Positions 1 to 19,131 of a DNA stretch of 20,949 nucleotides are shown here, one piece after another. The DNA lies in the IMG/VR virus record IMGVR_UViG_3300008120_001057, positions 1 to 20,949 of that record. One strand, 5' to 3'. The position numbers and the translations under genes are program-made. The number at the start of each line of letters is the position of its first letter. Position 1 is the stretch's first letter. The notes beneath the pieces are model-generated. The model saw only the letters and a program-made list of their open reading frames with translations, did not search any database and was not told the DNA's origin. The stretch comes from a virus.

Positions 1-1
1 A

Positions 2-64
2 TCACAGTATCAAATGGATCGGCCTGCTACTGGACAACTGGTGGCAGGCCATTCTTACATCTGA
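2..64 (+). CDS. C-terminal end of an upstream gene, probably structural (partial)
   Basis: A frame open from the left edge ends at the TGA of 62-64, giving about 20 residues that finish with HSYI. It sits immediately before the tail tubular protein A gene, the position occupied by the major capsid protein in T7-like genomes, so a capsid C-terminus is a reasonable guess, but the fragment is too short to identify by sequence. A different frame also stays open until the TGA at 67-69, so the choice of frame is tentative. It was preferred because its stop lies just before the Shine-Dalgarno of the next gene. Confidence 0.35.
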   Translation, partial: SQYQMDRPATGQLVAGHSYI

Positions 65-72
65 GGTGACAA

Positions 73-687
73 ATGGCTGCTGGTGATACCGACATTCGTA
101 TTTGCTCTGATGCCTTGCTGATGCTGGGCGGCAAAGCAATCTCTTCTTTCAACGAAGGCACATCAGCATCAAACACTTGTGACCGCCTGTACCCTGGTGT
201 CAAGTTCTCCACGTTACAGTCATACCCATGGTCTTTCAGCTTTAAGAAAGTCCAGCTTGCACAGACGATCAACACGCCTGTCAATCAATACCGATACGAA
301 TATCAACTGCCATCTGACCGACTTGGCGCAATCAGACGGGCATACAACAGTACAGCTATTGGCGCTGGAACATTCAATGATTGGGTGATCCAAGGCGATA
401 AGCTTTTGACAAATGAAACAACTGTGGTCATTGATTACCAGTTTGCGCCCACAGAATCCGAAATGCCAGCGTACTTTGTGCAATTGCTCAAGTACATGAT
501 GGCATGGCATTTGGCAGATCCGATCACAGATCAGGTCAGCAAGACACAATACTGGCAACAAGTTGCTGTTGGCTCACCTGGTGAGAACAACCGTGGTGGC
601 TACTTTCGCACAGCCATGGTGGTCGATGGACAAGGAAACACAACACAGTCATTTGAAGACTTCAGCCTTATTGAAGTGAGAAACTAA
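73..687 (+). CDS. Tail tubular protein A (T7 gp11-like adaptor)
   Basis: The 204-residue product looks like the T7 gp11 family, the ring that joins the portal to the tail nozzle in short-tailed phages. The N-terminus reads as a short helix-rich start (ICSDALLMLGG, then a conserved CDRLYP-type segment and a PWSF motif near residues 50-55) that is characteristic of these adaptors, and the length is close to T7 gp11 (about 196 residues). The ATG at 73 follows a strong GAGGTGA at 63-69. The stop TAA shares one base with the next ATG (TAATG), indicating translational coupling to the nozzle gene. Confidence 0.85.
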   Translation: MAAGDTDIRICSDALLMLGGKAISSFNEGTSASNTCDRLYPGVKFSTLQSYPWSFSFKKVQLAQTINTPVNQYRYEYQLPSDRLGAIRRAYNSTAIGAGTFNDWVIQGDKLLTNETTVVIDYQFAPTESEMPAYFVQLLKYMMAWHLADPITDQVSKTQYWQQVAVGSPGENNRGGYFRTAMVVDGQGNTTQSFEDFSLIEVRN

Positions 688-2669
688 TGGTTCGACTTGT
701 TGCCATTCAAACCAACTTTTCGAGCGGGGAGTTAGACCCTTTGCTCAGGGCTAGGGTTGAGCTTGAGCAATACAAGAATGGCGCTGAGACACTGACCAAT
801 GTATTGGTTCAGCCACAAGGCGGTGTACGCAGGCGTGGTGGGCTTAAACACTTGATGGAGATACCCAGCGCAGCAAGTCCACAAAATGGCACTCGTAGCG
901 TTGCATTTGAGTTCTCTGTAGACGACAGTTATATGCTGATCTTTGTGAATCAGCGGATGTATGTATTCAAAGACAGAACATTGATCACAAATATCAATGG
1001 TTCAGGCAATCCATATCTGGCAGTGACTGCTGTCACAAGCTCAATTCTGTCCACCATGTGTTGGACTCAATCTGCTGATACGCTGATCATCACCCATAAA
1101 GATATCAATCCGATCAAGATTGTGCGTGGTGGTACTGATGCCACATGGACTGTCAGCAATATCAGTTTTATTGGCATACCCAAATACGCATTCACCATTG
1201 CGTACAGCAACCCAGCAGGCACATTGACACCAAGTGCAACATCTGGAGCCATCACACTGACTGCATCGTCTGCGGTCTTTTCTGCTGGTAGTGTTGGTCA
1301 GTATGTAAATGCGACTCCACAAGGCAGAGCTAGGATCGTTGCATACACCAGTACCACTGTGGTTAGTGCTGTGACTGAGATCCCATTTTTCAATACTTCA
1401 GCTATTGCAACTGGATCATGGGAATATGAGTCTGGCTATGAAGATGTGTGGAGTTCAACCAAAGGTTGGCCTCGTACTTGTACCTTCCATGAAGGTCGTC
1501 TGTACTTTGGTGGCAGTAAGTCTCGCCCATCAACTGTGTGGGGAAGTAAGGTTGCCCAGTTCTTTGATTTCAATCCTGATCAAGTCTATGACGATGATGC
1601 GATTGAGGCAACGCTAGACACCAACAGCTTGAACACAATTACCGACATTATCAGTGGTCGTGACCTGCAAGTGTTTACGACTGGTGGCGAGTTCTATGTA
1701 CCGCAGTCTGGTCTTGATCCAATCACGCCAACCAACTTCTTTGTGAAAACAGTCAGCCGCAATGGTTCCCGTGAAGGTATGCGTGTGCAGACATTGCAGT
1801 CTGGAACCATCTATGTCCAGCGCCAAGGCAAAGCACTCAATGAGTTCTTGTACAGCGATGCAACTTTGTCTTATGTCAGTACATCAATCAGCTTGTTGTC
1901 CAGCCATTTGATCAACAATCCACTTGAATTGGCGTTAAGAAAAGCTACCAGTACAGAAGAGACAGATGCATTGCTGATGCTCAATGGAGACGGCACGATT
2001 GCCAACTACTCCATCTTGCGCCAGCAAAATGTGGTTGCTCCAAGCAAACTCACAACTGATGGATTGTTCAAAGACGTTGGCGTTGACATTGAAGACATTT
2101 ATGTTGTGGTCAAGCGTACATTTAACAGTGTGGACAAATACTTTGTTGAGGTGTTTGACACAACCACATTCACAGATTGCTGCTTTACTGGCGGTGTTGC
2201 CACAACCATTTCTAGCCTACCGCACATTGGCAAGACACTGAATGTGATTGCTGATGGCAGTGTGCTGTCTGATGAAGTTGTCAGCGGTGGTGGATCTATC
2301 ACAATGGATCGTGCCAGTACAACCAGTTATGAAGTTGGATTGCCATTCACAGTGACCATCAAGACTTTGCCTATTGAACCACGGATGTCTGTTGGTGTGC
2401 GTATTGGCTTTGTCAAACGCATTATTGAAGTCAATGCTTTGTTGTATGAGACACAGCATTTGCTGGTCAACGATAACCTTGTGCCGATCAGATCGTTTGA
2501 CACTGTTGGCATATTGGATGAAGCAATCCCAGAATTCACTGGAACAAAAACTGTTGGAGGAATCGCTGGGTACTCTGATGATGCTCAAATTACAATCAGT
2601 CAAAATCTTCCGTTGAAGTTAACGCTTCTGGGTCTTGACTACAAACTATCTGTGTACGGAGGCACATAA
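687..2669 (+). CDS. Tail tubular protein B (T7 gp12-like nozzle / stabilization protein)
   Basis: The 660-residue product begins with the typical family opening: TNFSSGELDPLL, then a GAETLTNVLVQPQGGVRRRGG stretch in which the N-terminal arm contacts the adaptor ring. The protein is beta-rich with no membrane segments, as expected for the tail nozzle. T7 gp12 is somewhat longer (about 790 residues), so this is a shorter relative of the kind common in non-T7 podoviruses. It begins on the overlapping TAATG of the upstream adaptor gene, and such adaptor/nozzle pairs are almost always adjacent. Family assignment is firm; the exact boundaries of domains were not resolved. Confidence 0.85.
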   Translation: MVRLVAIQTNFSSGELDPLLRARVELEQYKNGAETLTNVLVQPQGGVRRRGGLKHLMEIPSAASPQNGTRSVAFEFSVDDSYMLIFVNQRMYVFKDRTLITNINGSGNPYLAVTAVTSSILSTMCWTQSADTLIITHKDINPIKIVRGGTDATWTVSNISFIGIPKYAFTIAYSNPAGTLTPSATSGAITLTASSAVFSAGSVGQYVNATPQGRARIVAYTSTTVVSAVTEIPFFNTSAIATGSWEYESGYEDVWSSTKGWPRTCTFHEGRLYFGGSKSRPSTVWGSKVAQFFDFNPDQVYDDDAIEATLDTNSLNTITDIISGRDLQVFTTGGEFYVPQSGLDPITPTNFFVKTVSRNGSREGMRVQTLQSGTIYVQRQGKALNEFLYSDATLSYVSTSISLLSSHLINNPLELALRKATSTEETDALLMLNGDGTIANYSILRQQNVVAPSKLTTDGLFKDVGVDIEDIYVVVKRTFNSVDKYFVEVFDTTTFTDCCFTGGVATTISSLPHIGKTLNVIADGSVLSDEVVSGGGSITMDRASTTSYEVGLPFTVTIKTLPIEPRMSVGVRIGFVKRIIEVNALLYETQHLLVNDNLVPIRSFDTVGILDEAIPEFTGTKTVGGIAGYSDDAQITISQNLPLKLTLLGLDYKLSVYGGT

Positions 2670-3212
2670 ATGGCACAAATCGCAATGTTGGCCTTTGCTG
2701 CTGTAAGTGCATTGTCTTCTATCAGACAAGGTGAGCAACAAGCCGAAAGATTCAGATTTGAAGCACAGCAGGCTGAACTGCAAGGTCGTCAGAATGCGCT
2801 GAACTACAACCGCCAAGCTTTGGCTGTTTTTGAGCGCCAGCAAAAAATAAGTGGATCTATCCGAGCAAGAGCAGCCGCTGGCGGCATTGACCCACTGACA
2901 GGAAGCCCACTGTCTATTGACCAATCAAATGCCCAACGTGCTGGCTATGAGATGCAGATTGCCCGTGAGAATGCTGAGTTAGCGGCTGCTGGTGGTCTGG
3001 CTCAATCGCAACAACTGTATGGTGCGGCTACTGTTGCAGAGGCTGCTGGCATAACAGGCGCAATTGGCAAAGTTGGAATGGCGTATGCCATGTATGGTCA
3101 ATCTGCAACTCCACCTGCTCAGTCAACACCAGTTACTCCATATTCTAGACCTGTCACAACAAATCTTCCATCGTATTCTATGCCAATAAATTTGAATGGA
3201 AGGGAATACTGA
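2670..3212 (+). CDS. Small internal virion protein (T7 gp14-like)
   Basis: This 180-residue protein has a hydrophobic N-terminal helix (residues 2-17), a long Gln/Ala/Arg-rich helical middle and a GGIDPLTGSP turn near residues 70-79 that recurs in small podoviral internal proteins. In T7 the equivalent protein (gp14) leaves the virion first and forms the outer-membrane part of the ejection channel. GGAGG at 2658-2662 gives a good ribosome site seven bases before the ATG, which directly follows the upstream TAA. The role is inferred from position and composition more than from catalytic motifs. Confidence 0.7.
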   Translation: MAQIAMLAFAAVSALSSIRQGEQQAERFRFEAQQAELQGRQNALNYNRQALAVFERQQKISGSIRARAAAGGIDPLTGSPLSIDQSNAQRAGYEMQIARENAELAAAGGLAQSQQLYGAATVAEAAGITGAIGKVGMAYAMYGQSATPPAQSTPVTPYSRPVTTNLPSYSMPINLNGREY

Positions 3213-3213
3213 C

Positions 3214-3426
3214 ATGGCTGAATTACCTCGTTACGAAAATCTAGGTGTTCAGTATGCTGATCTGCCAAAGATATCCACAGCTATGCAGCAAATTAAAGCT
3301 CAGGGATATGCTGGCGTTGAGCAATCATTAGATCGAATGACCAACTTCTTTCAAGAGAAGGCGGTCACTGAAGCTCAAAAGAAAGCATTGAAATATGCTA
3401 TTGAATTACCTTCAACTACAGACTGA
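3214..3426 (+). CDS. Internal virion protein, N-terminal fragment of a frame-broken gene
   Basis: The ATG at 3214 is preceded by AAGGGA (about 3200-3205) at good spacing, one base after the previous stop, so this is the true start of the gene; an upstream in-frame ATG at 3196 lies inside the previous gene. The 70 codons (MAELPRYENLG..., then a helix ending in KKALKYAIE) look like the N-terminus of the mid-size internal virion protein that normally precedes the large one. The frame then stops at TGA 3424-3426, while the expected continuation is found in the +1 frame from about 3395. See the next entry and the finding on the frameshift. Confidence 0.6.
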   Translation: MAELPRYENLGVQYADLPKISTAMQQIKAQGYAGVEQSLDRMTNFFQEKAVTEAQKKALKYAIELPSTTD

Positions 3427-4774
3427 ATTTCAAAACAGGACTGCTGCAAGATTAAATGCAATGGAGCGTGGCGCTGTTCTTGATGTCACCACACTTCAAC
3501 GTGATTTGCGTGATGACATTGATGGCACTATATCTGTCCTGACTGCGATTGATCCAGAGACATCTATCAAGTTCCGTGCATCTATGGCTACCATTGGTCA
3601 TGGCGTATACAAGCAAGCATTGGTAATCGATGAAAAGAATCGCCAATTGAGTTATGCCGCTGATCAAGAGGCTGCTCTTATGAGCATCAAACCTGTGGTT
3701 GAAAATGTCATTAAGTCATATGCTGACATTGGAATGGATCCAGCAGAGCTTGAAAATATTTTGCAAAATGTGATACAGCCTTTTACAAACAAGACAAGCA
3801 TTACATTGTCTGGTAGTGAAAAATACGCTATTGAGGCATACAAGATTGTGCAAGAAGCTAAGGTTGGCGCTGTACTGACAAAGCTGTCAGATCCGATATT
3901 TGCACCTTCTGTTGGTGTTGCCGCTCAAAAATTAATGAATGGTGATGTTGGTGAATTGACTGGTTTATATAACAGACTGGATAAAGAAACCAAAAACAAA
4001 ATCAGATCTGCACATATGAAATTAGTCAGTGATGCCAAACAATTCACTGATATTGAAGATGAAAAACGTAAGGCTGAAAACAAAATCAAGGGCAATGAGT
4101 TGACTATTGAATTCTTGCGCCCTGATACAAAGCCTGCTCGTAAGCAAGAAATTTTGACCGAGATGATTCGTTTAGATGAAATGAATTTGACCACCGCTAT
4201 GGAATTGATGAAGCCAAAAGAAGTTGAACCAAATCCAGTGCTGACAATGAATCTTTATGAAAACATCAAGAATGGTCGGATAAAGAGCATCAAAGAACTT
4301 GTGCCATATTCATCCAAAATGAGTCGTGCTGAATTTGAATCACTTGGCAGATCATTGGTTGACAATCAGGCCAAGATTGCTTTGGAAAGAATTGATCGTG
4401 AAGCTGGCATTGTCAGTCCATTCATTGATCCTGGCGCTGAAAAACTCAAGAAGAAAATTGATCTTACCGAAAGATATTACCAAGAACTGCAAAAACAAGT
4501 GGTTGGTGAAAAAGGTGTAAAGCGTTATTTGACACCAGAAGAGGCTTTGAATAATGCATTAAAAGGATATGGTGGCGATAAGATCGTCATAGACAAAGAG
4601 ACAAAGCGCAAACAAGCTCAAGAGAAGATAGACAATTTCTTCAGCAAAAAGCCAGATGTCAAAAAGCCAAACACGCCACTTGATCAGACTGATTTTTCCA
4701 AAGTGCCTGGCTTGTCTTCAGATGAAGTGACTCGTCTGAACAAAGCCAAGAAAGATTATCAGGACAACCTATGA
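3395..4774 (+). CDS. Internal virion protein, main C-terminal part (T7 gp15-position)
   Basis: This frame encodes up to 459 residues, mostly charged alpha-helix with Lys/Glu-rich coiled-coil-like stretches. FQNRTAARL followed by IKFRASMATIG is the kind of sequence found in the middle of podoviral internal proteins rather than at a start. No convincing Shine-Dalgarno precedes the ATG at 3395, and the next ATGs (for example near 3459) also lack one. It therefore most likely represents the continuation of the gene starting at 3214, with a joined length of roughly 520 residues. Location between the gp14-like and large internal protein genes matches T7 gp15. The stop overlaps the next ATG (ATGA). 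Confidence 0.65.
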   Translation: MLLNYLQLQTEFQNRTAARLNAMERGAVLDVTTLQRDLRDDIDGTISVLTAIDPETSIKFRASMATIGHGVYKQALVIDEKNRQLSYAADQEAALMSIKPVVENVIKSYADIGMDPAELENILQNVIQPFTNKTSITLSGSEKYAIEAYKIVQEAKVGAVLTKLSDPIFAPSVGVAAQKLMNGDVGELTGLYNRLDKETKNKIRSAHMKLVSDAKQFTDIEDEKRKAENKIKGNELTIEFLRPDTKPARKQEILTEMIRLDEMNLTTAMELMKPKEVEPNPVLTMNLYENIKNGRIKSIKELVPYSSKMSRAEFESLGRSLVDNQAKIALERIDREAGIVSPFIDPGAEKLKKKIDLTERYYQELQKQVVGEKGVKRYLTPEEALNNALKGYGGDKIVIDKETKRKQAQEKIDNFFSKKPDVKKPNTPLDQTDFSKVPGLSSDEVTRLNKAKKDYQDNL

Positions 4775-5355
4775 GTCTAGAACGAGAACTTCGCAAAGAC
4801 TGGGATAGTGTGTTCTACCCAGCACCTGATCCTATTGTGGAGCCAGCGCCAGTCCAAGCGCCTGGCACAAGCCAGCTTGGTGACATTCTGGTGGCTGAGG
4901 CTGGATCTAGGGGCTTGCCTGAGTCTGCCTATTCTGGTCAGGTTCAGGCTGAGATGAAATCTTTTGATCCAACCATGCGCCAGCAAGCTGCTGACAAGCT
5001 TCAGGCTGTATTGGAAAGTCTTGGCGTAGATCGTTACAAAGCCCGTCAGAACGCACAATCTTTTATTGGTGGGCCAAGCAGTAATCTGCCAGCAACTATG
5101 GGGCTTGTAGACGCTTTGGCGATGCTGCCTGGTATTGGTACAGCAATTGGTACTGCCATGCTGCCCATGTACACTGAGGAAGGCGCTTTGGCAATTGCTG
5201 AAGGTATTAAATCTGCCGAGCAAGGCGATCTAGTATCTGCTGGAATTGAGACTACTGTTGGTGCATTGAATGTATTACCAGGCGCACAGGCGGCAAAAGA
5301 AGTTGGTAAGACTGTTGTCAAGAAAGCCAAGTCATTGGTTAAGGAAGCAAAATAA
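4771..5355 (+). CDS. Small virion-associated protein with hydrophobic segment
   Basis: The 194-residue product has an acidic, Pro-rich N-terminal third (PAPDPIVEPAPVQAP near residues 17-31), a helical middle, a Gly/Ala-rich hydrophobic stretch (about residues 110-132, VDALAMLPGIGTAIGTAML) that could enter a membrane, and a Lys-rich C-terminus. It is placed between two internal virion protein genes, with ATGA coupling upstream and TAATG downstream, so it is probably ejected or packaged with them. I do not recognise a catalytic motif. A structural or membrane-active role is inferred from context only. Confidence 0.55.
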   Translation: MSLERELRKDWDSVFYPAPDPIVEPAPVQAPGTSQLGDILVAEAGSRGLPESAYSGQVQAEMKSFDPTMRQQAADKLQAVLESLGVDRYKARQNAQSFIGGPSSNLPATMGLVDALAMLPGIGTAIGTAMLPMYTEEGALAIAEGIKSAEQGDLVSAGIETTVGALNVLPGAQAAKEVGKTVVKKAKSLVKEAK

Positions 5356-8309
5356 TGGCGATCCAGCAACTTGATCTTAAACTTGATCAGATGAATGAAA
5401 CCCTTGTTGACCAAGATCAGCGAGAAAAGCTTGCTTCTGCGCCAATGTCGGAAACAGCAACTGCTGACGCTATGGCTCCTATGCAAGCAGAAATGCAAGA
5501 AGAAGGCATTCAGGTTGCTGGCGGTGGTGGTTCGGTAATGCGTGAGGTATTGAAGAAGCTCAAGCCTGTCGAGATCCGCAAGCCACCAGTTGCACCACTG
5601 ACACCAGAAGCCGCTACTGCCGCTGCGGTAGAAGACACTACCAAAGCCGCAATTAATGCTGGTGTAACTACCAGCAAGACAGAAGCCAAGATTGCTGCCA
5701 AGGTGCAAGCTAACGCCAAGCCAGCGATCACGCCAGAAGCTTTTGCCAGTCAACGTGCTGAAGTGCAAAAGATCCGTGCTGTCACAGATCCAGCCACAGA
5801 AGTACCGCCAGCAACAGTATTCAATCTGCCAAAGATGGAGACAACGGAAGACATCAAGTCAACCATTGAAACCATGAACAAGATGGCTGGCATCAAGACC
5901 CAGACAATCACATTTGATGATGTGCGTACAGCCGCTGAAGGTGCTGGCATTGGCCCAAAGTTTATTGATGACATCACCAGTGGCAAGCTGGAAGTCAGCC
6001 CAGAGAACACCTACAAAGCTTTGAACGCCATGGTTGCCAGTGCCAAGCACTTAGATGGACTGGCGGCAAAAGTGGCTGATGGATCTGCTACTCCAACCGA
6101 GTTGGCAGAGATGGCTCAAACCATTCACTTTCACAATCTGCTTCAGCAAAGCGTCAAAGGTTACCAGACCAATGTTGCTCAGTCTTTGGCAGTGATGCGT
6201 ATGCCAAGAGATGGTGCTGTTGATATTTCAAGCATCATTGAGAACTTTGGCAATGAGACTGATATTGTGAAGTTTGCTCAAGCCTATCTGGATGTCAAGA
6301 CTCCAGAGGGTAAAGCCAACATGATCAAAAGTATGGCTCAAGGTAATCCTTGGGAGAAGATGTACACAGTCTATGTCAACGGCATTTTGTCTCGACCAGG
6401 CACACATTTGAAGAATGCTTTGAGTAACACTGTATTCTTGCCATGGCGAATGACTGAACGTGCTGTTGCCGCAACGATTGGAACAGTGCGACAAGGCATT
6501 GGTCTTGGTGGTGACGATGCATACTCATTGCTGGAAGTGCCAACCATGCTGGCATCCACAACAACTGCTGTGCGTAATGGCTGGGAGTTGATGTCTCATG
6601 CATTTGTCAATGGTGTGCCAAAAGGCTGGAATGACCCAACCAAGATTGCCAGACAACAATCCCGCTTAGAGTTGTTTAATGCCAAAGCAGATGGATCTTT
6701 GTTGTCGGCTGGCATTAGGTCACTCAATTATGTAACCACATTGCCTGGTCGTGCATTGATGACATCAGATGAATTCTTTAAGGGTGTCAACTACACCTAT
6801 GAGTTGTCTGCTGAAGCCTCACGACTTGGCATCAATACATATAACGATGCGCTAAAAAGCGGCTCATCTGTTGCTGATGCGCTCAAAGCCAAGTCTGATG
6901 CCATTGATAGATTCTTACTGGAGCCACCAGATTACATTGTGGGTTTGGCAGAGACTGGGACATTTACTCAAAGGCTTGAAGGTACTGCTGGGAAAATACA
7001 GTCTGCATTGACACCAAATACAGCAACTGGATTTGCCTTGCGTACTCAACTGCCATTTATTGCAACACCAGTCAATGTGATGGGTGAAGCAGTAGCTCGT
7101 ACACCATTGGCTCCATTTACCAGTTCTTTCTGGTCTGCCATGAAACAAGGCGGCAAAGAAGCAGATATGGCAATGACCAAGGTTGGTCTTGGTGGTGCAG
7201 CCATATATGGATTCAGCCAAATGGCTACCAATGGAACGATTACAGGATCTGGCCCTGGTGATAAAGGCACACGCCAAGCGATGGAGCGCCAAGGCTGGCA
7301 ACCATACAGCTTTGTGTTTGACATCAGTAACCTGACAGAAGATGTGCGTCAAGACTTTTCGCAGTTCCCTGGCATGGTCAGATTTGGTTCTGGTGATTAC
7401 GCAGGTAAGGTCTACTTGAGTTACCAAGGCATGGAGCCTATTGGAGCTTTGATGGGTATGTCTGCTGACTATGTGGACTATGCTCGGTATGAGGAAGACG
7501 ACAGTCGTGTTAATGCGCTGGCTGGCGGTATTGTGTTTGGTGTTGCCAACTATATGTTGGAGCATCCAATGCTGACTGGTGTGAGCAATATCACCTCATT
7601 GCTTGGCGGCAGTGTTCCAAACAGCAGACAACACATGGTTGAGATGTTGAATGGTATTGCTCGGATTGGTACAACAACTGCCATCAAATCTGTTGAGCCA
7701 CTGTCTGGAATTATTACCAGCACCAAAGAAAAGATTGATCCATTGCGTAGAGACTACCAAGCAGATCCTAATTTGCCTGCTGGCCTCAAAGGCTTGATGG
7801 ATGCTGTAAACAAGTGGAAATCTGAGACACCTGGCTTATCTGAGAATCTGCCACCCATGCTTAACATCTGGGGCGAGACAGTACCGCATGAGTACACATG
7901 GTCACCATTGCGGATGAAAGAAGGCAAGATGTCTGAGACTGATCAGGCGTTGATCCAGTTGAATGCCAACATTAGTATGCCTACTAGACAAGTCAACATG
8001 GTAGATCCAAAAACTGGAATCTCTTCAAGCACCAAGTTGACATCTGAAGAATATAACGAAGTGATTCGTATTGCGAATGACAAACTCAAATTGGAAGATC
8101 AGGTTAAAGCGGTTGTGCAAATGATTAAAGAAGACGACAATAAACAGCCATTAATCAGGTATCAGAACATGATCAGCAAAACATTCAGTGATGTGTTTGA
8201 AATCTCCAAAAAGTTTTTATTGGAAGAAAGCATTTATGGTGATGACATTAAGGAACGCATTGCCGACAAAGCTGAAAGACTCAATGAATTTGGCAAAGGA
8301 GCTAAATAA
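5355..8309 (+). CDS. Large internal virion protein (T7 gp16-position)
   Basis: At 984 residues this is the largest internal protein, in the place of T7 gp16, which spans the inner membrane during DNA ejection. The Ala/Pro-rich N-terminal part (residues 1-150) contains no soluble lytic transglycosylase signature that I can find, unlike T7 gp16. Two segments are typical of the large podoviral family: YVNGILSRPGTHLKNALSN at about residues 340-358, and an ITGSGPGDKGTRQAM...GWQPY block at about 630-655. Long Gly/Ala/hydrophobic helices lie between them. The start overlaps the upstream stop as TAATG, with AAGGA at about 5341-5345. A lysozyme activity, if any, must come from elsewhere. Confidence 0.75.
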   Translation: MAIQQLDLKLDQMNETLVDQDQREKLASAPMSETATADAMAPMQAEMQEEGIQVAGGGGSVMREVLKKLKPVEIRKPPVAPLTPEAATAAAVEDTTKAAINAGVTTSKTEAKIAAKVQANAKPAITPEAFASQRAEVQKIRAVTDPATEVPPATVFNLPKMETTEDIKSTIETMNKMAGIKTQTITFDDVRTAAEGAGIGPKFIDDITSGKLEVSPENTYKALNAMVASAKHLDGLAAKVADGSATPTELAEMAQTIHFHNLLQQSVKGYQTNVAQSLAVMRMPRDGAVDISSIIENFGNETDIVKFAQAYLDVKTPEGKANMIKSMAQGNPWEKMYTVYVNGILSRPGTHLKNALSNTVFLPWRMTERAVAATIGTVRQGIGLGGDDAYSLLEVPTMLASTTTAVRNGWELMSHAFVNGVPKGWNDPTKIARQQSRLELFNAKADGSLLSAGIRSLNYVTTLPGRALMTSDEFFKGVNYTYELSAEASRLGINTYNDALKSGSSVADALKAKSDAIDRFLLEPPDYIVGLAETGTFTQRLEGTAGKIQSALTPNTATGFALRTQLPFIATPVNVMGEAVARTPLAPFTSSFWSAMKQGGKEADMAMTKVGLGGAAIYGFSQMATNGTITGSGPGDKGTRQAMERQGWQPYSFVFDISNLTEDVRQDFSQFPGMVRFGSGDYAGKVYLSYQGMEPIGALMGMSADYVDYARYEEDDSRVNALAGGIVFGVANYMLEHPMLTGVSNITSLLGGSVPNSRQHMVEMLNGIARIGTTTAIKSVEPLSGIITSTKEKIDPLRRDYQADPNLPAGLKGLMDAVNKWKSETPGLSENLPPMLNIWGETVPHEYTWSPLRMKEGKMSETDQALIQLNANISMPTRQVNMVDPKTGISSSTKLTSEEYNEVIRIANDKLKLEDQVKAVVQMIKEDDNKQPLIRYQNMISKTFSDVFEISKKFLLEESIYGDDIKERIADKAERLNEFGKGAK

Positions 8310-9256
8310 TGGCATACCCGATATCTGATGTAACAAGGCGTGTTGTATACACTGGCTCTGCTGGAGTAGGGCCATACAGCTTCAGCTTTGAGATTCTCAC
8401 AAATACTGACATTGCGGTATATAAAGACACCACACTACTGACGCTGACCACTGACTACACTGTGACGATCAATGCCAATGGCACTACAGACTTTGTAACT
8501 GGTGGTGATTTGTTTGCCAACTCGCTCAATGATGAGTTTGACAGCTTGGTCATTTTTAGCCAGCAGACTGATGAAAAAGCAGAGCGTGGACTGAAAGCTC
8601 CTGTAACTGATCCAACAGACATCAACATGGTTTTGCCAAGCAAGACCAGTCGTGCAAGCAAGTACTTGGCGTTTGATGTTAATGGCAATCCTGTGGCTAC
8701 TGCTGGTACTTCTGAGTCTCCATCATTAGGCACAATGTCATCACAGAACGCAAATGCTGTTGCAATCAGTGGTGGCAGTATTGCTGGCATTACAGACCTT
8801 GCTGTTGCTGATGGTGGTACTGGTGCATCAACTGCTGCTGGGGCAAGAACAAATCTTGGTCTTGCAATTGGAACTGATGTTCAGGCATATGATGCAAATT
8901 ATGCAAAAACAAATACTGCTCAATCTTTTACAGCAGCACAACGTGGATCCATTACAGCATTAACTGATGGCGCAACCATTACTGCTGACTTTGCTGTGGC
9001 AAACAACTTCAGTGTGACGCTGGGTGGCAATCGGACATTGGCTAATCCAACCAATCAAACTGCTGGTCAGTCTGGTGCGGTTGTGGTGACACAAGATGGC
9101 ACTGGATCACGCACATTGGCTTATGGAAGCAATTGGAAGTTTGCTGGCGGTACTGCTCCGACATTGACAACTACGGCAAATGCTGTTGATGTAATTGCTT
9201 ATTATGTTGAAAGTGCAAGTCGTATTACTGCACGTTTGATTGCGGATGTGAAATGA
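8309..9256 (+). CDS. Tail fibre protein with T7-type N-terminus
   Basis: The 315-residue product opens with the T7 tail-fibre attachment type domain (residues 1-130: beta-rich, YTGSAGVGPYSFSFEIL, then TTDYTV and a KAPVTDP motif), which docks the fibre to the tail. A GGTGASTAAGARTNLGL segment near residues 170-190 is a recurrent joint in phage fibres, followed by a beta-rich C-terminal region (VVVTQDGTGSRTLAYGSNWKF, about 265-285) seen at the ends of many fibre proteins. AAAGGAG (about 8295-8301) precedes the overlapping TAATG. It probably forms the base on which the next gene product, the larger receptor-binding protein, is mounted. Confidence 0.8.
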   Translation: MAYPISDVTRRVVYTGSAGVGPYSFSFEILTNTDIAVYKDTTLLTLTTDYTVTINANGTTDFVTGGDLFANSLNDEFDSLVIFSQQTDEKAERGLKAPVTDPTDINMVLPSKTSRASKYLAFDVNGNPVATAGTSESPSLGTMSSQNANAVAISGGSIAGITDLAVADGGTGASTAAGARTNLGLAIGTDVQAYDANYAKTNTAQSFTAAQRGSITALTDGATITADFAVANNFSVTLGGNRTLANPTNQTAGQSGAVVVTQDGTGSRTLAYGSNWKFAGGTAPTLTTTANAVDVIAYYVESASRITARLIADVK

Positions 9257-12102
9257 GCATCATCAACGCCCACCCCCTACTGGCTGCCGCTGGTGCTGAT
9301 GGCTATCAAATCAGCCGAAACGCCTCTCTTGAAAACCTGTTGGGTACGCCATATAACACTGCATCTACTAACGCTACCTTACTCCGCATAGGCAACGATT
9401 CAGTGAATTTTGCTACATGGGATGGCGGTGTACAAACAGGACTTGTTAGCTCTGCAAATCTGCTTAGAGACCCATCTGCTTGGTACCACATTGTCTATAA
9501 GGTAGACACAACACAAGCAACCGCTGCTAACAGAGTTCGCATTTATGTAAATGGAGTTGAGGTTTCTTACTCAACTGCCTCCTACCCAGCGCAAAACTAC
9601 AATACTTACATTAATAGTGCAATAGCACATTATTCTGGGGTACTGTGGTTTAGTACTGGTGGCGCTTTCTCTGCGGCTCAACCAATGGACGGCTACCTCA
9701 CCGAAATCAATTTCATTGACGGACAGGCGTTAACGCCTTCTAGTTTCGGAGAAACTAACGCAGTCACAGGTGTATGGCAACCTAAACGCTATGCTGGTAC
9801 ATACGGCACAAATGGCTTCTATTTACCTTTTTCTGATAACTCTGGTGCGGATAGTTTTGGTATTGGTGCAGATAAATCAGCAGATGCATTAAATCGTGTT
9901 GAACTTGGCAATACTAGTGTGGGTTATACCATATTAGGAACCATGACATTTGCATCTGCTGGTGCAGCCCAAGTACACTTACGAGACAACAATTCATCAA
10001 CAGCAGCAGCAGACCCTGGTGGTTTAACTACAAATACAGCATTAGGATATGATTTTGGTAGAGCTATTAAAATAAGAAGAATTGCAACACTTACCGCTGC
10101 TGCTAATGGTACAGGTGCAACAAGTATATTCAATATTCAATACTCTGACGATAATGTCACATGGACAACAGTAACAGGGTCAGCTACTACACATACATTT
10201 TCAGCAGGGCTTGCACAAAGCAATACTACTGATATAGATGACAATGGTTCGCACCGATATTGGAGATTAAGATATTTGTCTGGTACTACAGCTGGTAATT
10301 TTTGGATTGCCACATTAGATATGTATGTTAACAATATTGGGCCTAATAGTTGGTTTCCAGTTAATGTATCTACAACTGCTGGCACAACCTACGATTCCAT
10401 GCTGGACGTGCCTACGCCTTATGCTGATGGTGATAAAGGGCGGGGGAACTATTGCGTGTTGAATCCGTTGCAAGATAGTGCAACGCTGGCGAATGGAAAC
10501 CTTGACGCTACCTCGCTCTCTAGTTACTCAGGCCGCAAGGCAACCATGCAACTCCCGACAACGGGAAAATGGTATTGGGAGACTACTGTTTCCAACACAA
10601 GCACAACGGCTGGAAACTGGTTTATTTTTGGCATGGTTACAAATTCTTTTGCGCTGACCTCTGCGGCTGTTGGGGCTGCTAATGCAATTTCTTTTGGTGA
10701 CAGGAACGATTCTGTATCTGGTGTGTTTAATGAAACAACAACAGTGTTCTCGTCTGCATCGATAAACTTTGCGACCAATGACATATTGCAATGTGCTTAT
10801 GACGCAGATAGTGGCAAGTTTTGGTTTGGAAAAAATAATTCTTGGTATGACTCATCTGGAACCACCACAGGCAATCCAGCAACAGGGTCTAACCAAACGC
10901 TAACGGCCTCCGCAAAAGAGTGGTTTCCGTTCTTCCAAGGCAATAACACTTCGTCTGTGGCTAATCTGAATTTTGGTCAACGCCCATTCAGCTACACACC
11001 ACCCACAGGTTTCAAAGCACTGAACACGCAAAATCTGCCTACGCCTACGATTAGCAATGGTGCTAATTACATGGCGGCTACGACTTACACGGGTACAAAC
11101 ACTACACTAGCTGTTAGCAATGCTGTTAATGGTATTTCATTTCAACCTGACTTGGTTTGGATTAAAAATAGAAGCGGTACTCAAAACCACTATCTACAAA
11201 ACTCTGTTGTTGGAGCAACAAGTTATCTTGTTAGCAACAACACAGGTGCAGAAAACCAATATAGCGGATCGGGGGTTAGTGCGGTCACAGCGTTTACCTC
11301 ATCTGGATTTAGCCTTGGCACTGACGCTATTGGCATGGCAAACAGCAACTCGCAAACCTATGTCGGCTGGCAATGGAACGCTGGCGGCTCAACTGTAACC
11401 AACACCAGCGGGACAATCTCATCACAAGTAAGAGCAAACCCCACTGCTGGCTTTAGCGTGGTGACATTTACTTCAACTGGTTCTTCAGGTGCTGTAACTG
11501 TTGGGCATGGTCTTGGTGTTGCCCCAGCAATGGTAATTACCAAAGAGCGTGGTGCGGTTGGTTCATGGGGTGTTTATCACACAGGATTAACAACACCCGC
11601 ATCACAGTATTTGAATTTACAAACAACTGGTGCGGCAACTACCAACACATCCTATTGGGGAAATACTAATCCAACATCTACTGTTGTCACTTTGGGCAAC
11701 GGAACAATGATGGCTCTTAATACAACAATGGTTATGTACTGCTTTGCCGCAGTAGCTGGATACTCTGCATTTGGTAAATACACAGGCAATAGTTCTGCTG
11801 ATGGGCCTTTTGTGTATCTTGGATTCAAACCAAGATATTTACTTATTAAATCATCAGTAGTTGCTGGTGGAACATGGGTGGTGTTTGATTCAGCAAGAAG
11901 TACATACAATGTAACAGGTGAAAAATTAGCACCAAATACCGCTGATTCAGAAAACAGCGGGGCTACGGGTATTGCTGGTGGCGTTGATTTTCTTTCAAAC
12001 GGATTTAAGATTCGATTAAGTTGGGGTGACATAAACACCTCAAACACCCTAATCTATGCCGCCTTTGCCGAAGTGCCGTTTAAATCGGCTCTCGGGCGTT
12101 GA
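9253..12102 (+). CDS. Mosaic receptor-binding / tail spike-like protein
   Basis: The 949-residue protein is a chain of beta-sandwich modules. Residues about 1-185 resemble a LamG/concanavalin domain (WYHIVYKVDTTQ, VRIYVNGVEV, then TEINFIDGQALTPSSFG). About 205-365 looks discoidin (F5/8)-like (IQYSDDNVTWTTV and RYWRLRY). About 425-585 resembles SPRY (GKWYWETTV, NFGQRPFSYTPPTGF). About 600-949 is the common phage C-terminal block ending AAFAEVPFK. All are typical of carbohydrate-binding adhesins. The ATG shares ATGA with the fibre stop; the Shine-Dalgarno is weak, so coupling is likely. The gene start seems short in its first LamG strand and the discoidin block differs in base composition (see findings). 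No enzymatic residues recognised. Confidence 0.75.
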   Translation: MSIINAHPLLAAAGADGYQISRNASLENLLGTPYNTASTNATLLRIGNDSVNFATWDGGVQTGLVSSANLLRDPSAWYHIVYKVDTTQATAANRVRIYVNGVEVSYSTASYPAQNYNTYINSAIAHYSGVLWFSTGGAFSAAQPMDGYLTEINFIDGQALTPSSFGETNAVTGVWQPKRYAGTYGTNGFYLPFSDNSGADSFGIGADKSADALNRVELGNTSVGYTILGTMTFASAGAAQVHLRDNNSSTAAADPGGLTTNTALGYDFGRAIKIRRIATLTAAANGTGATSIFNIQYSDDNVTWTTVTGSATTHTFSAGLAQSNTTDIDDNGSHRYWRLRYLSGTTAGNFWIATLDMYVNNIGPNSWFPVNVSTTAGTTYDSMLDVPTPYADGDKGRGNYCVLNPLQDSATLANGNLDATSLSSYSGRKATMQLPTTGKWYWETTVSNTSTTAGNWFIFGMVTNSFALTSAAVGAANAISFGDRNDSVSGVFNETTTVFSSASINFATNDILQCAYDADSGKFWFGKNNSWYDSSGTTTGNPATGSNQTLTASAKEWFPFFQGNNTSSVANLNFGQRPFSYTPPTGFKALNTQNLPTPTISNGANYMAATTYTGTNTTLAVSNAVNGISFQPDLVWIKNRSGTQNHYLQNSVVGATSYLVSNNTGAENQYSGSGVSAVTAFTSSGFSLGTDAIGMANSNSQTYVGWQWNAGGSTVTNTSGTISSQVRANPTAGFSVVTFTSTGSSGAVTVGHGLGVAPAMVITKERGAVGSWGVYHTGLTTPASQYLNLQTTGAATTNTSYWGNTNPTSTVVTLGNGTMMALNTTMVMYCFAAVAGYSAFGKYTGNSSADGPFVYLGFKPRYLLIKSSVVAGGTWVVFDSARSTYNVTGEKLAPNTADSENSGATGIAGGVDFLSNGFKIRLSWGDINTSNTLIYAAFAEVPFKSALGR

Positions 12103-12110
12103 GGAATACT

Positions 12111-12638
12111 ATGCCACAAGGACGCTTTCATCAAGACCAATCAGGCACAAAGATAGCGATGCTTACGCTATTGGAAAAAACTGAATCACGCACAGGAAAC
12201 GGCAGTTTTAAATATCGAGTTATGTGCGATTGTGGAACTGAAAAAATTGTAGGGTTTAGCCAAATGGCAACAGGCAGAACTCAATCCTGCGGTTGTTTGC
12301 AATTGCGTAAAGGTAAAGATGCTCCAGCATATAAACATGGTCGTAGCCAAACAAAAGAATATGACCTTGAACTGCACATGAAACGCAGTTACGGAATGGG
12401 CTTTAAAGAATACGAGGAAATGTTATTTGCTCAAGATGGCAAGTGCGCTATTTGTAAAGCAGAGCCACCCAAAGACCAGCACAAAACTAGATTAAACATA
12501 GACCATTGCCATACAACAGGCAAGGTTCGTGGATTGCTTTGTGACTGCTGTAATCGTGCTTTAGGCTTGATGCGAGACAATACAGAATTATTGGAAAAAG
12601 CTATCAAATACTTAAACAAAAATTCACTTGCGAGGTAA
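12111..12638 (+). CDS. HNH / endonuclease VII-type homing endonuclease
   Basis: The 175-residue protein has two zinc-binding parts. The N-terminal module has CDCG (residues 39-42) and SCGCL (59-63), a DNA-binding arrangement frequent in phage homing enzymes. The C-terminal catalytic module carries C112-x2-C115, IDHCH (130-134), then VRGLLCDCCN (139-148), the zinc and beta-beta-alpha metal signature of the recombination endonuclease VII family. An earlier in-frame TTG at 12099 was rejected because GAGG at 12101-12104 is spaced six bases from the ATG at 12111. Free-standing, inserted between the receptor-binding gene and a tail-associated gene, it is more likely a mobile nuclease than a packaging resolvase. 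Confidence 0.8.
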   Translation: MPQGRFHQDQSGTKIAMLTLLEKTESRTGNGSFKYRVMCDCGTEKIVGFSQMATGRTQSCGCLQLRKGKDAPAYKHGRSQTKEYDLELHMKRSYGMGFKEYEEMLFAQDGKCAICKAEPPKDQHKTRLNIDHCHTTGKVRGLLCDCCNRALGLMRDNTELLEKAIKYLNKNSLAR

Positions 12639-13369: not shown

Positions 13370-14077
13370 GTGGATCCTATATCCTTGCTATTCGCTGCCA
13401 ATGCTTGTGTGGCAGCAATTAAAGAAGGATGTGAACTTTATAAGCAAGCCAAAGAGTCTTTCATGGAGGTCAAAGCGACTGTCGATGAGGTTGCTGGCAT
13501 ATATAAGGAAGTTACTGGATTTTGGAGTAACTTTAGTAACTTCTTTAAACCTAAGAATAAGCCAGTTCAATCCTCTGCCACGCCAAAGTCTGTGGCGAAA
13601 AAGAAGGAGAAGTTCGTTGCCGTTGACGAGACACAAGTCAAGGTCAACATTGTCAAGCAGCTTACTGAGTTTTTTAAAATTCAGGAACAGCTTGAAGCAC
13701 ACATAAGAGAAGAAGAAGAAAAGTCGAGAACTGTCTATGACCCAGATCAGAATTACATGGAGGCAGCACTAAAGCGTGTGATGGCACAGCAGCAGATGGC
13801 TGAGTTAGTGGTTCAGATCCGTGAATGCATGGTGTACCAGTCCCCACCTGAAATGGGGGCTTTGTACAGCGAGGTGTTTAACATGAGGGAGATCATTCAG
13901 GAGGAGCAAACTCAGGCAAGACTCAAACAAGAAGCAGCGAAGAGGGTAGAGTCATGGCAACGCAAGGAAGAGCAAAGAAGCTTCCAGCTAAAACTAGGAT
14001 ACCTAGTAGCGACTTTTATATTCCTCCTGTATCTTTGGATGTGGCTCCTGTTCGTAAACCAATTGGGGAAGAAATAG
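13370..14077 (+). CDS. Membrane-anchored coiled-coil phage protein (GTG start)
   Basis: The frame begins with GTG at 13370-13372, giving VDPISLLFAANACVAAIKEG, the family's usual opening, rather than with the ATG at 13368, which belongs to a different frame. Residues 1-60 are helical, 85-200 are charged coiled coil (EEEEK, QEEQTQARLKQEAAKR), and residues about 209-228 form a C-terminal transmembrane helix (YLVATFIFLLYLWMWLL). Proteins with this arrangement occur near the lysis genes of podoviruses; their role is unknown to me. The last 120 bases are overlapped by the next gene. Confidence 0.65.
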   Translation: MDPISLLFAANACVAAIKEGCELYKQAKESFMEVKATVDEVAGIYKEVTGFWSNFSNFFKPKNKPVQSSATPKSVAKKKEKFVAVDETQVKVNIVKQLTEFFKIQEQLEAHIREEEEKSRTVYDPDQNYMEAALKRVMAQQQMAELVVQIRECMVYQSPPEMGALYSEVFNMREIIQEEQTQARLKQEAAKRVESWQRKEEQRSFQLKLGYLVATFIFLLYLWMWLLFVNQLGKK

Positions 14078-14241
14078 TGGGCTGGATTGCTGCGTGTGTG
14101 CTGATTGCCTTGCTGTTGCCAATCATGGGGGTTCTTTATCTTGACATACTTGCAACAAAGAATGAGGCTAAATCTCAGTTGGAACAGGTTGAACGGTTAA
14201 GACGACAGCTTGAGCAAAAGGAAAGGGAGAAAGAAAAATGA
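13954..14241 (+). CDS. Small membrane protein overlapping the upstream gene
   Basis: The 95-residue product has a basic N-terminus (MATQGRAKKLPAKT), a strong transmembrane segment (residues about 41-64) and a C-terminal coiled coil (QLEQVERLRRQLEQKEREKEK). It starts at an ATG inside the previous gene in another frame, so 124 bases encode two proteins. An AGAGGG upstream (about 13941-13947) is a plausible ribosome site, which argues that the frame is real. The pattern of transmembrane segment plus coiled coil resembles the preceding protein and the spanin, suggesting a membrane complex. Function is unassigned. Confidence 0.65.
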   Translation: MATQGRAKKLPAKTRIPSSDFYIPPVSLDVAPVRKPIGEEIVGWIAACVLIALLLPIMGVLYLDILATKNEAKSQLEQVERLRRQLEQKEREKEK

Positions 14242-14426
14242 ACATCTATTGCATTTGGGGGTTGTCTGTTTTGCTGGTCTTGTTGACTGGCTGCGAAGAT
14301 AGATTCAGGTATCCATGCCAAGACCCAAAGAACTGGGAAATTGATCAATGCAAACCTCCAATCTGTAGTGCCACTGGCACTTGTCCTGAAATGTTGATCA
14401 CCACATCTGAAAAGGAGAAAAAATAA
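14238..14426 (+). CDS. Small phage lipoprotein
   Basis: The 62-residue protein has a signal peptide with the lipobox LLTGC, so Cys19 would be the lipidated residue after cleavage by signal peptidase II. The mature part is short and Cys-rich (YPCQDPKNW, then CKPPICSATGTCP), which suggests disulfides in the periplasm. I know of similar Cys-rich lipoproteins near the lysis genes of other podoviruses, but not their function. It is translationally coupled on both sides (ATGA at the start, TAATG at the end). Confidence 0.7.
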   Translation: MNIYCIWGLSVLLVLLTGCEDRFRYPCQDPKNWEIDQCKPPICSATGTCPEMLITTSEKEKK

Positions 14427-14755
14427 TGCCGACCGTTGTAATGAACAAACCAAATCGAATGACCGCTGAAGAGATAGAGATCCGTGTGTGGGCTTTTGTG
14501 ATTGTCATATTGGTGGCAATTCTTTTCGGTGCAATGTTTGCGTTTCTCTATTCTGTGACTTATGTCACTCAGCCAATGGCTGGCATGGCTCCCATTGACA
14601 AGGTGTATACCAGCCAGATCTCTACGATCATGGTATTTATTACGGGTGTGCTAGGTGGTGTGGCTGGTAGATCTGGTGTCAAAGCTGTTGCAAAAGCTGT
14701 TGCCAAGGCAGATGCTGAAGCTGACAGCGAACCAAAGATGGAAGCCAAGGAATGA
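14426..14755 (+). CDS. Two-transmembrane protein, holin candidate
   Basis: The 109-residue product has two hydrophobic segments (about residues 21-46 and 63-84), a short connector with Pro and Gly between them, and a Lys/Ala/Glu-rich cytoplasmic tail (about 85-109). That arrangement, and the position just before the spanin and endolysin genes, fits a class II-type holin that would open the inner membrane for the signal-less endolysin. The helical GVLGGVAGRSG turn also occurs in other phage proteins of this type. No experimental family name is claimed; the 64- and 95-residue proteins upstream are alternatives. Confidence 0.55.
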   Translation: MPTVVMNKPNRMTAEEIEIRVWAFVIVILVAILFGAMFAFLYSVTYVTQPMAGMAPIDKVYTSQISTIMVFITGVLGGVAGRSGVKAVAKAVAKADAEADSEPKMEAKE

Positions 14756-15231
14756 GTCTATTCAATCCATGGGTGCTACTTGGCATCTTGATGGCTGTGA
14801 TTGGCGCTGGCACAACTGGATACATCAAAGGTGGATCTGATGAGAGCAAGCGCCAGCAACTAGAGATAGCCAGGTTAAACGAGCAGGCAAGGGCAAAGGA
14901 ACAAGCTCTGGTTTCTGCTGTTCAAACGCAAGCAACTCAATTGGTGAAGGCAAACAACAATGCAAAAACTGTTATTCAAAAGCGCAATGCTGACATTGAC
15001 TCTGGCACTTTGCGGCTGCGGCTCCCTGTTAAAGCCACCGCCTGCCCCGTACAAGCCCCCGCAGATCCCCCCGTTGCCAGCGGAGATAGCATTCAAACAG
15101 GAGCCGAACTTGAGCGAGAGACTGCTAAAGCTCTTATCACCATCACAGACGATGGAGACAAAGCAATCAGACAACTCAACGCCTGCATCGATGCCTACAA
15201 CTCCATCTACCAAACCATGAAAGGAAACTGA
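14752..15231 (+). CDS. Rz: Inner-membrane spanin subunit (Rz-like)
   Basis: The 159-residue product has one N-terminal transmembrane segment (about residues 5-25) and then a long periplasmic helix of coiled-coil character (31-85), as in lambda Rz. The segment SGTLRLRLPV at about 84-93 recurs in Rz-type i-spanins. Two Cys (98 and 145) could form intermolecular disulfides. It starts on the ATGA of the holin candidate and ends on the TGATG of the endolysin. Rz spans the periplasm with Rz1 to fuse the inner and outer membranes at the last step of lysis. The gene contains Rz1 completely (see below). Confidence 0.85.
   Translation: MSLFNPWVLLGILMAVIGAGTTGYIKGGSDESKRQQLEIARLNEQARAKEQALVSAVQTQATQLVKANNNAKTVIQKRNADIDSGTLRLRLPVKATACPVQAPADPPVASGDSIQTGAELERETAKALITITDDGDKAIRQLNACIDAYNSIYQTMKGN
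14960..15220 (+). CDS. Rz1: Outer-membrane spanin lipoprotein (Rz1-like), nested inside Rz
   Basis: An 86-residue frame lies wholly inside Rz in another frame. It begins with a signal peptide that ends in LCGC, so Cys20 is the expected lipid-carrying residue, followed by a strongly Pro-rich stretch (KPPPAPYKPP, then QIPPLPAEIAF) and a polar C-terminus. That is the defining layout of Rz1, an outer-membrane lipoprotein that complexes with the Rz C-terminus. GAAGG at 14946-14950 lies nine bases before the ATG. The run of C-rich codons shared with Rz at about 15035-15075 reflects the double coding. Nested Rz/Rz1 is well known from lambda and other phages. Confidence 0.85.
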   Translation: MQKLLFKSAMLTLTLALCGCGSLLKPPPAPYKPPQIPPLPAEIAFKQEPNLSERLLKLLSPSQTMETKQSDNSTPASMPTTPSTKP

Positions 15232-15842
15232 TGAACGCTGAACAACTTGCCCATGCTTTGAAATTAACGCCTGCAAAGGCAGAGGAGTGGATAGATGCAA
15301 TCAATGAAACTTTTGATCGTTTCGACATATCAACGCCTGAAAGACAGGCTTGTTTCTTGGGGCAATGCGCTCACGAATCTGCTGGGTTCACTGCGCTCAA
15401 AGAAAACCTCAACTACTCAGCAGAAGGATTGACCAAGGTCTGGCCTAAGCGGTTCCCTAGTTTGGACGCTGCCCAGCCATACCATCGCAATCCAGAGAAG
15501 ATTGCCAACAAGGTCTACGCTGACCGCATGGGCAATGGTGATGAGGATTCTGGTGAAGGGTTCAAGTACCGTGGTCGTGGTCTGATCCAGTTGACTGGCA
15601 AAGATAACTACCGTGCGTGTGGTGAAGCTTTAGGTGTTGACCTGGTTGAAGATCCAGATCAGGTATCCAGTCCTCAGTATGCTGCCTTGTCAGCAGGCTG
15701 GTTCTGGGATAAGAATAAGTTGAATCAGTTTGCTGATGCCAACGATATGACGACATTGACCAAGCGGATCAATGGTGGAACCCATGGCATTGATGATCGG
15801 ATTGCTCGTACTCAACACGCCTTGGATTCCTTGATGGCTTAA
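15231..15842 (+). CDS. Endolysin, GH19 chitinase-like muramidase
   Basis: The 203-residue product is a GH19-type catalytic domain over essentially its full length, with no binding domain. Expected landmarks are present: AHESAG with Glu49 as the probable acid catalyst, LKENLNY with Glu58 as a second candidate, YRGRGLIQLTG (113-123) and INGGTHGIDDR (180-190). The enzyme cleaves peptidoglycan glycan strands during lysis. No signal peptide is present, so release depends on a holin. AAGGA at 15221-15225 precedes the ATG, which shares TGATG with Rz. The TAA overlaps the convergent small gene (TTAA). Confidence 0.85.
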   Translation: MNAEQLAHALKLTPAKAEEWIDAINETFDRFDISTPERQACFLGQCAHESAGFTALKENLNYSAEGLTKVWPKRFPSLDAAQPYHRNPEKIANKVYADRMGNGDEDSGEGFKYRGRGLIQLTGKDNYRACGEALGVDLVEDPDQVSSPQYAALSAGWFWDKNKLNQFADANDMTTLTKRINGGTHGIDDRIARTQHALDSLMA

Positions 15843-15955
15843 TCTTGGCCTAAAAGCCAAGTGTGGAAATCAACAGGGGGTATGCCGACAGACTGACATC
15901 TGCGGCAGTACTCTCTGTATTCTTTGTCAAGCTTCTCCCAATCCGATGGATTCAT
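15839..15955 (-). CDS. Hidden 38-residue protein with a Cys pair
   Basis: A short minus-strand frame starts at the ATG whose complement is 15953-15955, inside the 3' end of the ERF gene, and stops at 15839. It reads MNPSDWEKLDKEYREY, then CRRCQ, then a VGIPPVDFHTW-type segment. GGAGAAGGA lies just before the ATG (complement about 15958-15968), an excellent ribosome site. The gene follows the leftward recombination operon in a shifted frame. Its last two codons overlap the endolysin stop through the palindrome TTAA. CxxC and the helix rich in charges suggest a small metal-binding or regulatory peptide, but no function can be assigned. Confidence 0.55.
   Translation of the reverse strand: MNPSDWEKLDKEYREYCRRCQSVGIPPVDFHTWLLGQD
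15844..15861. terminator. Candidate hairpin between convergent genes
   Basis: CTTGGC (15844-15849) and GCCAAG (15856-15861) form a perfect six-base-pair stem with a six-base loop directly after the endolysin stop. No U-run follows on the + strand, so as an intrinsic terminator it is weak. It lies inside the convergent 38-codon gene. It could end the lysis transcript or protect a 3' end. Confidence 0.35.
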
Positions 15956-16649
15956 CGTCCTTCTCCTCAAGCTGTGCGCCCAGTCTCTTTAGGCGCAGTT
16001 GGTAATCCCCAAGCAACTTTGCCTTATGCTCAGGGTTGATCTTGTTGACCTGATCCTCGTTTGCTTCACGCAATTCCCGAAGCTTAGTCATTTTTGTGCG
16101 GTTGGCAAGTGTGGATTTCTCTACCTTTTCACGCAGTTCAATGGTTCCATTTGTGTATGCATCTGAGTCAGCATAATGGCGTGGTTCTTTGCCTGGTATG
16201 GTTAGCGTGTATGGCAAAGTAGTTGCTGGCGCTGGTGGCTTGATAGCATCCAGCGGGTTGGTTGCTGGCGCTAGTTTGCGACTGCCAGCGTTGCCATCAT
16301 CGTCTTCTGGTGCTATGCCACAGGCAGACATCAGGCTGTACCTACGGGCATAGGTCAAGGCACTAGCGTACCCTTGTGGATCCTGTTTGACAGCAGGAAA
16401 GTGGACGATGCCGCACTCCAGCATCTCGCCAGACTCATGGACAAACACTGTCTCGCACATGATGCCATCATTGCAGTCGTAATTTTTTTGCAGTAAAAAT
16501 ATGCCATTTTCATTTAGGGCATCGATCACCGCTTCGACACAAGCAGACAGATCTGCATACCTACTGCGGAAGTGAGGGTTTGTACTAGTCTTCAATGCTG
16601 GGCCAAAGGCTCTTTGGGCTTTGACAAGGGCTGATGCAATCTGTTTCAT
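15927..16649 (-). CDS. erf: ERF-family single-strand annealing protein
   Basis: The 240-residue product belongs to the Erf/P22-like superfamily of single-strand annealing proteins, which pair complementary DNA strands after 5'-end resection. The best signature is at residues 89-120: QDPQGYASALTYARRY, then SLMSACGIAPEDDDGN. The C-terminal part (about 150-240) is a charged, variable tail. The start at 16649 shares ATGA with the end of the YqaJ-type exonuclease, and AAGGAA lies upstream at good spacing. Placement directly beside the exonuclease is that of a Red-type recombination pair, expected to act in phage recombination and repair. Confidence 0.9.
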   Translation of the reverse strand: MKQIASALVKAQRAFGPALKTSTNPHFRSRYADLSACVEAVIDALNENGIFLLQKNYDCNDGIMCETVFVHESGEMLECGIVHFPAVKQDPQGYASALTYARRYSLMSACGIAPEDDDGNAGSRKLAPATNPLDAIKPPAPATTLPYTLTIPGKEPRHYADSDAYTNGTIELREKVEKSTLANRTKMTKLRELREANEDQVNKINPEHKAKLLGDYQLRLKRLGAQLEEKDDESIGLGEA

Positions 16650-18970: not shown

Positions 18971-19131
18971 ATGAAGATACTTTGGAGCAGCGGATCAGCC
19001 ACCTTGAACACCAGTTTGAGCAAATGGCAGAAGCTTTTCATGCCAACAGCCAGTTGATGGTGATGATGGCTAGGGAACTTAAACGAATCAAAGATGCAAT
19101 GGGTGATGAAGATCCCATGGGGATGCAATGA
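18967..19131 (+). CDS. 54-residue coiled-coil peptide
   Basis: The short frame begins at ATG 18967 on the ATGA of RusA with TGGAG (18954-18958) eight bases upstream. The product is a single charged helix with leucine and methionine heptad spacing (LEQRISHLEHQFEQMA, then QLMVMMARELKRIKDAMG). It has no catalytic features. Its TGA (19129-19131) overlaps the methyltransferase ATG at 19128 and lies one base before the second-frame ATG at 19132, so it is the translational feeder for that pair. Its role may be mostly to dimerise or bind the neighbouring products; none is proven. Confidence 0.55.
   Translation: MNEDTLEQRISHLEHQFEQMAEAFHANSQLMVMMARELKRIKDAMGDEDPMGMQ

Follow-up and report, generated by a model that had tools for sequence, protein, structure and literature searches.

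The gene of a putative internal virion protein is split over two reading frames in the window, that is, the whole stretch of 20,949 nucleotides analysed here (bases 1–20949 of a virus record of 28,942 bases), and 116 nt that are present in near-identical contigs are absent at the point where the frames change. Comparison of these sequences suggests that the split gene is very probably an artefact of the metagenome assembly or of the underlying library, and the fault appears to lie in the assembly and not in the virus. Most probably, the sampled virus has an unbroken gene of about 558 codons that encodes a T7 gp15-like internal virion protein. On this reading, the contig would have joined two stretches with 116 nt omitted, and the omission would have moved the remainder of the gene into the +1 frame. 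As a guess, the length of the loss is about that of one read or one k-mer. As biology, the observed split is ordinary.

The broken gene in the window

3214..3426, plus strand: 5′ fragment of the internal virion protein gene, residues 1–66 of 558, followed by four out-of-frame residues and a stop
3395..4774, plus strand: 3′ fragment in the +1 frame, 459 aa, with genuine coding from residue 106 (at about 3413)
3411..3412, plus strand: junction without the 116 nt found in relatives, located by comparison with near-identical contigs

The 5′ frame begins with the ATG at 3214, preceded by a good ribosome site (upstream sequence GGAAGGGAA), and ends after 70 aa with the TGA at 3424–3426; its last four residues are the product of the frame change. 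Upstream, a TGA at 3389 closes the second frame. Its first ATG (3395) precedes the first frame's stop codon by 29 nt, and the two open frames overlap by 32 nt. A ribosome-binding site was not recognisable by eye before this ATG or before the one at 3461. These features bear out the sequence-only reading, which had described a 5′ fragment with a good ribosome site and an early end, and a continuation in the +1 frame that had no such site. Its suspicion that the junction is short relative to relatives was also right. The 116 nt absent between 3411 and 3412 correspond to 38 whole codons plus 2 nt and affect residues 67–105, and the window keeps residues 1–66 and 106–558 of the 558-residue protein. 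Exact microhomology at the junction is 0 nt, and its flanks have an imperfect 10-nt stretch in common (8/10, read from the alignment). None of the 81 20-mers of the missing piece is present elsewhere in the record, and a consensus scan found no promoter or terminator near the junction. The exact 23-nt junction was absent from all other viral contigs in a scan that may omit the record itself and near-identical ones.

The gene is intact in relatives

Three contigs, 98–100% identical to the window on both flanks, hold a single frame of 558 codons with 116 extra bases at 3411|3412. The nearest, L003 (from data set 3300032050), shows 99.91% identity over window positions 1–3422 and 100% over 3412–8485, plus the 116 nt at the junction. 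The flanks of L003 and L008 (data set 3300008114) are 99.9–100% identical to the window and those of L002 (data set 3300008110) 98–100%, and all three carry the 116 nt within one open frame. Downstream of the junction, 5,074 nt are identical in the window, L003, and L002.

The sequence-only reading had proposed a comparison with homologous proteins, and the outcome favours a single gene. Among the 65 contigs gathered with the intact-protein relative at E 1e-5, 64 carry the gene as a single frame open across the junction site, the window alone being broken, and in 0 of the 64 is it present as two separate genes. Full-length single ORFs of 547–599 aa are found in the 55 contigs that pass the length and start filters. 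When viral contigs were scanned with the 3′ fragment, 12 loci emerged, and all of them (12/12) continue in a single frame through the junction site. In one of the 64 (positions 10528–12201 of 3300011116_000049), codon 4 is a stop (MAD*PRYEN), away from the junction site, and the frame is open beyond this stop.

The stretch absent from the window is conserved. In 41 aligned sequences, residues 67–105 have a mean identity of 54% to protein P0003 versus 42% for the whole protein, and they rank 59 among 520 segments of 39 residues; residues 1–66 are conserved higher still (60% mean identity to P0003). Within the lost stretch, T68, Q71, G86, G88, F91, and L103 are nearly invariant.

A cultured relative, Methylophilales phage MEP301, was found when the intact relative served as query; the 3′ fragment by itself matched nothing when the phage collection was searched at the protein level. 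The MEP301 protein gp26 (MW452941, QRV71454.1; 567 residues, annotated as hypothetical) is encoded, unlike the window gene, in one unbroken frame. It shows 31% identity over 177 aligned positions that span the stretch absent from the window, and its C-terminal two thirds are unaligned. The neighbourhood is shared: it comprises tail tubular protein B, a protein of the 160-aa size, gp26, a small protein, and then two more genes matching the 984-aa internal virion protein of the window. As a separate observation, the annotation of MEP301 divides the gp16-like protein between two overlapping frames, gp24 and gp23 (positions 14031–17130 of its record, 56-nt overlap), versus the single 984-aa ORF in the window (5355–8309); this may reflect a genuine split, a frameshift, or an error in sequencing.

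Similar losses in the same record and data-set series

8485..8486, plus strand: second loss (78 nt, frame kept), within the tail-fibre-like ORF 8309–9256
9317..9318, plus strand: third loss (102 nt, frame kept), early in the tail-fibre/virion-protein ORF 9253–12102
26525 of the virus record (L014:6526): fourth loss, 99 nt, frame kept, in the large terminase gene (phrog_2)

The junction in the internal virion protein gene is one of four such losses in the record. The ORFs at 8485|8486 and 9317|9318 both match tail-fibre PHROGs, and the product of the former (ORF 8309–9256) is 315 aa in the window versus 341 aa in L003. The 99-nt loss takes out 33 terminase residues that are present in 3300008114_000279, and the lost piece contains DTNP, which is conserved in terminases. 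As this loss keeps the frame, a gene caller would miss it. Three of the four lengths are divisible by three, for which chance gives about 11%. The long form is present end to end in 15 contigs at 3411|3412, and in 37, 3, and 12 contigs at the other three sites, respectively.

We counted losses of 60–200 nt among contigs with a near-identical partner. The record itself has 4 in 28,690 bases compared. Contigs from data sets 3300008107–3300008267, a series that we take to come from western Lake Erie (an assumption that plays no part in the argument), have 8 losses in 10 contigs and 99,020 bases compared, with six of the 10 contigs affected and four free of such loss. All other contigs together gave 1 loss (69 contigs, 493,920 bases). 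The range was set after the first scan had been viewed, and the P value of 4.6e-6 serves as a guide only. Judged from its behaviour, the record under study appears to belong to the faulty group.

The losses in the range contigs are of 146 and 164 nt (3300008107_001438), 98 nt (3300008110_001468), 95 nt (3300008110_003557), 73 nt (3300008113_003853), 96 nt (3300008114_000279), and 71 and 161 nt (3300008259_001706). Like the loss at the window junction, these losses of 71–164 nt in data sets 3300008107, 8110, 8113, 8114, and 8259 have 0–2 nt of microhomology and are indifferent to frame; each is at its own place, and some interrupt reading frames of tail or other genes. One of the sites of private blunt loss in range contigs is L002/L017:1529. 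At the sole event outside the range (3300012347_000071), microhomology is 7 nt and the flanks contain 10 mismatches, which is closer to what a natural event would leave.

Rows with net differences of 202–245 nt, five of the 18 listed, were excluded from the 60–200 nt count (20044_1216, 32288_427, 8055_894, 8114_301, and our record at 17599). The difference at 17599 looks like a natural variant because it is shared with 8114_301 against the same partner.

A follow-up check, in which 80 more loci were fetched with the endolysin, agrees with the first scan but is small, with one affected contig. Already-used contigs were set aside (5 from the range, with 1 known event, and 14 others, with none). 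Within the range, two new contigs (5,540 bases) gave two losses, both in 3300008114_001153, of 120 and 107 nt and exactly blunt. Outside the range, there were 59 new loci, of which 29 had a partner (129,450 bases); they gave two rows, which represent a single site compared with the same partner and surrounded by 15–20 mismatches.

Nature of the junctions and alternative explanations

The 12 junctions in our record and the range contigs have 0–2 nt of exact microhomology. The mean of 0.42 nt is about the chance level, the random expectation being 0.72 nt (20,000 random deletions of 70–164 nt in L003). At nine of the 12, there are zero mismatches in the surrounding 320 nt. Eight of the 12 lengths are not divisible by three, which equals the two thirds expected without selection. 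At six of the 12 places, the long form has a frame open over the full length compared, and the short form loses this frame at four and keeps it at two.

Since the losses are private to their contigs, homology-free, frame-indifferent, and bound to certain data sets, they argue for assembly or library faults and not for phage biology. As would befit an artefact, the intact allele of the virion protein gene is found in near-identical sequences and its loss in this contig only, and homology-free, frame-indifferent losses recur at unrelated places in the same data sets. Two options raised from the sequence, a deletion with a frame shift and an assembly error, are in this way supported together: 116 nt are absent, and such losses recur. 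Our search found no literature on five of the data-set numbers and none on assembler errors of this kind. One Lake Erie study applied IDBA-UD to Microcystis isolates and does not contain the number 3300008 (PMC5647855).

A real 116-nt deletion, very recent and present in some genomes, would disable the phage unless the protein came from intact siblings in the same cell. We regard it as unlikely, and it keeps its modest share of the probability because of the imperfect 10-nt repeat at both edges of the junction, which makes a homology-driven event possible. The downstream identity to intact relatives is also what a very recent event would give, and the other three losses in the record keep the frame. 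Against such a deletion, however, stand these same three further losses, in two tail-fibre-like genes and one terminase gene, together with the like losses elsewhere in other 3300008107–8267 contigs and the absence of the junction from the other viral contigs scanned.

More improbable still is the broader proposal that the losses occurred in the DNA itself, with blunt, homology-free deletions of about 70–165 nt in a fraction of the phage genomes from the sampled waters. If so, defective genomes would be supplied and maintained by intact siblings, and the clustering by data set would mirror place or season rather than software.

The sequence-only reading had also listed a programmed +1 shift and reinitiation, and neither is borne out. 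A programmed +1 frameshift, yielding a fusion protein or two products, would be compatible with the 32-nt overlap between the +1 open frame and the first, but we give it almost no credence: the two-frame layout is not kept in relatives (of the 65 gene-bearing contigs, 64 have no frame change), the fusion would be without the conserved stretch 67–105, and the junction sequence was found in no other viral contig scanned, so that a conserved shift site is not seen. Two separate genes, with the second translated by reinitiation at 3395 or 3461, are equally hard to credit; the ATG at 3395 is close ahead of the first stop codon, but neither start has a recognisable ribosome-binding site, and 64 other contigs and MEP301 have one gene.

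With an assembly or library artefact as the favoured explanation, these data carry a warning: several public viral contigs from one data-set series are short of pieces of about 100 nt, some of them in core genes. Gaps of this size can be mistaken for frameshifts, split genes, or short proteins. When contigs are mined for programmed frameshifts or broken genes, near-identical contigs of other data sets should be compared beforehand.

Identity of the broken protein

2670–3212: internal virion protein, phrog_418 (PHROG match)
5355–8309: internal virion protein of 984 aa, phrog_6651 (PHROG match)

The gene order in the window is T7-like, with tail proteins (phrog_394, phrog_376) followed by phrog_418, the broken gene, a 194-aa protein without a family, and phrog_6651. 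The broken gene is thus flanked by gp14-like and gp16-like proteins, as expected of a T7 gp15-like protein, with the 194-aa protein lying in between. No PHROG or Pfam family was matched by either fragment or by the intact protein. Searched against PHROGs, the 41 homologues matched two unnamed families, one homologue each (E 0.0065 and 0.008), and a sequence search of the PDB gave no gp15 match.

The predicted model of the intact protein (pLDDT 79.6, pTM 0.39) is almost wholly helical, and the lost stretch comprises a helix (residues 69–78), a loop, and the start of a helix at 89–123. Among solved structures, the model is matched best, though weakly, by the T7 ejectosome tunnel 7k5c_A (E 0.042, probability 0.90, TM-score 0.20–0.22), a chain that we take to be T7 gp15, and no PDB structure matches at E 0.001. 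Viral models named internal virion protein also match, the best of these with E 7.3e-5.

The window gene is like T7 gp15 in its position between gp14-like and gp16-like proteins, in its helical prediction, and, weakly, in its best solved match; it is unlike T7 gp15 in that its sequence matches none of the gp15 families of PDB, Pfam, or PHROGs, and the TM-score is low (0.20–0.22 as above). Its description as a mid-size internal virion protein, made from the sequence, is therefore supported by gene order and weakly by fold and not by sequence family, and its membership of the T7 gp15 class is weak.

Elsewhere in the window, a DNA methyltransferase gene (phrog_363) seems to have been inserted at 19132–19848. 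The contig 3300008259_000605 aligns to 19132 and resumes from 19848, and the match of 3300042868_003333, at 95% identity, ends at 19132. Two long frames overlap at this locus (19128–19865 and 19132–19848).
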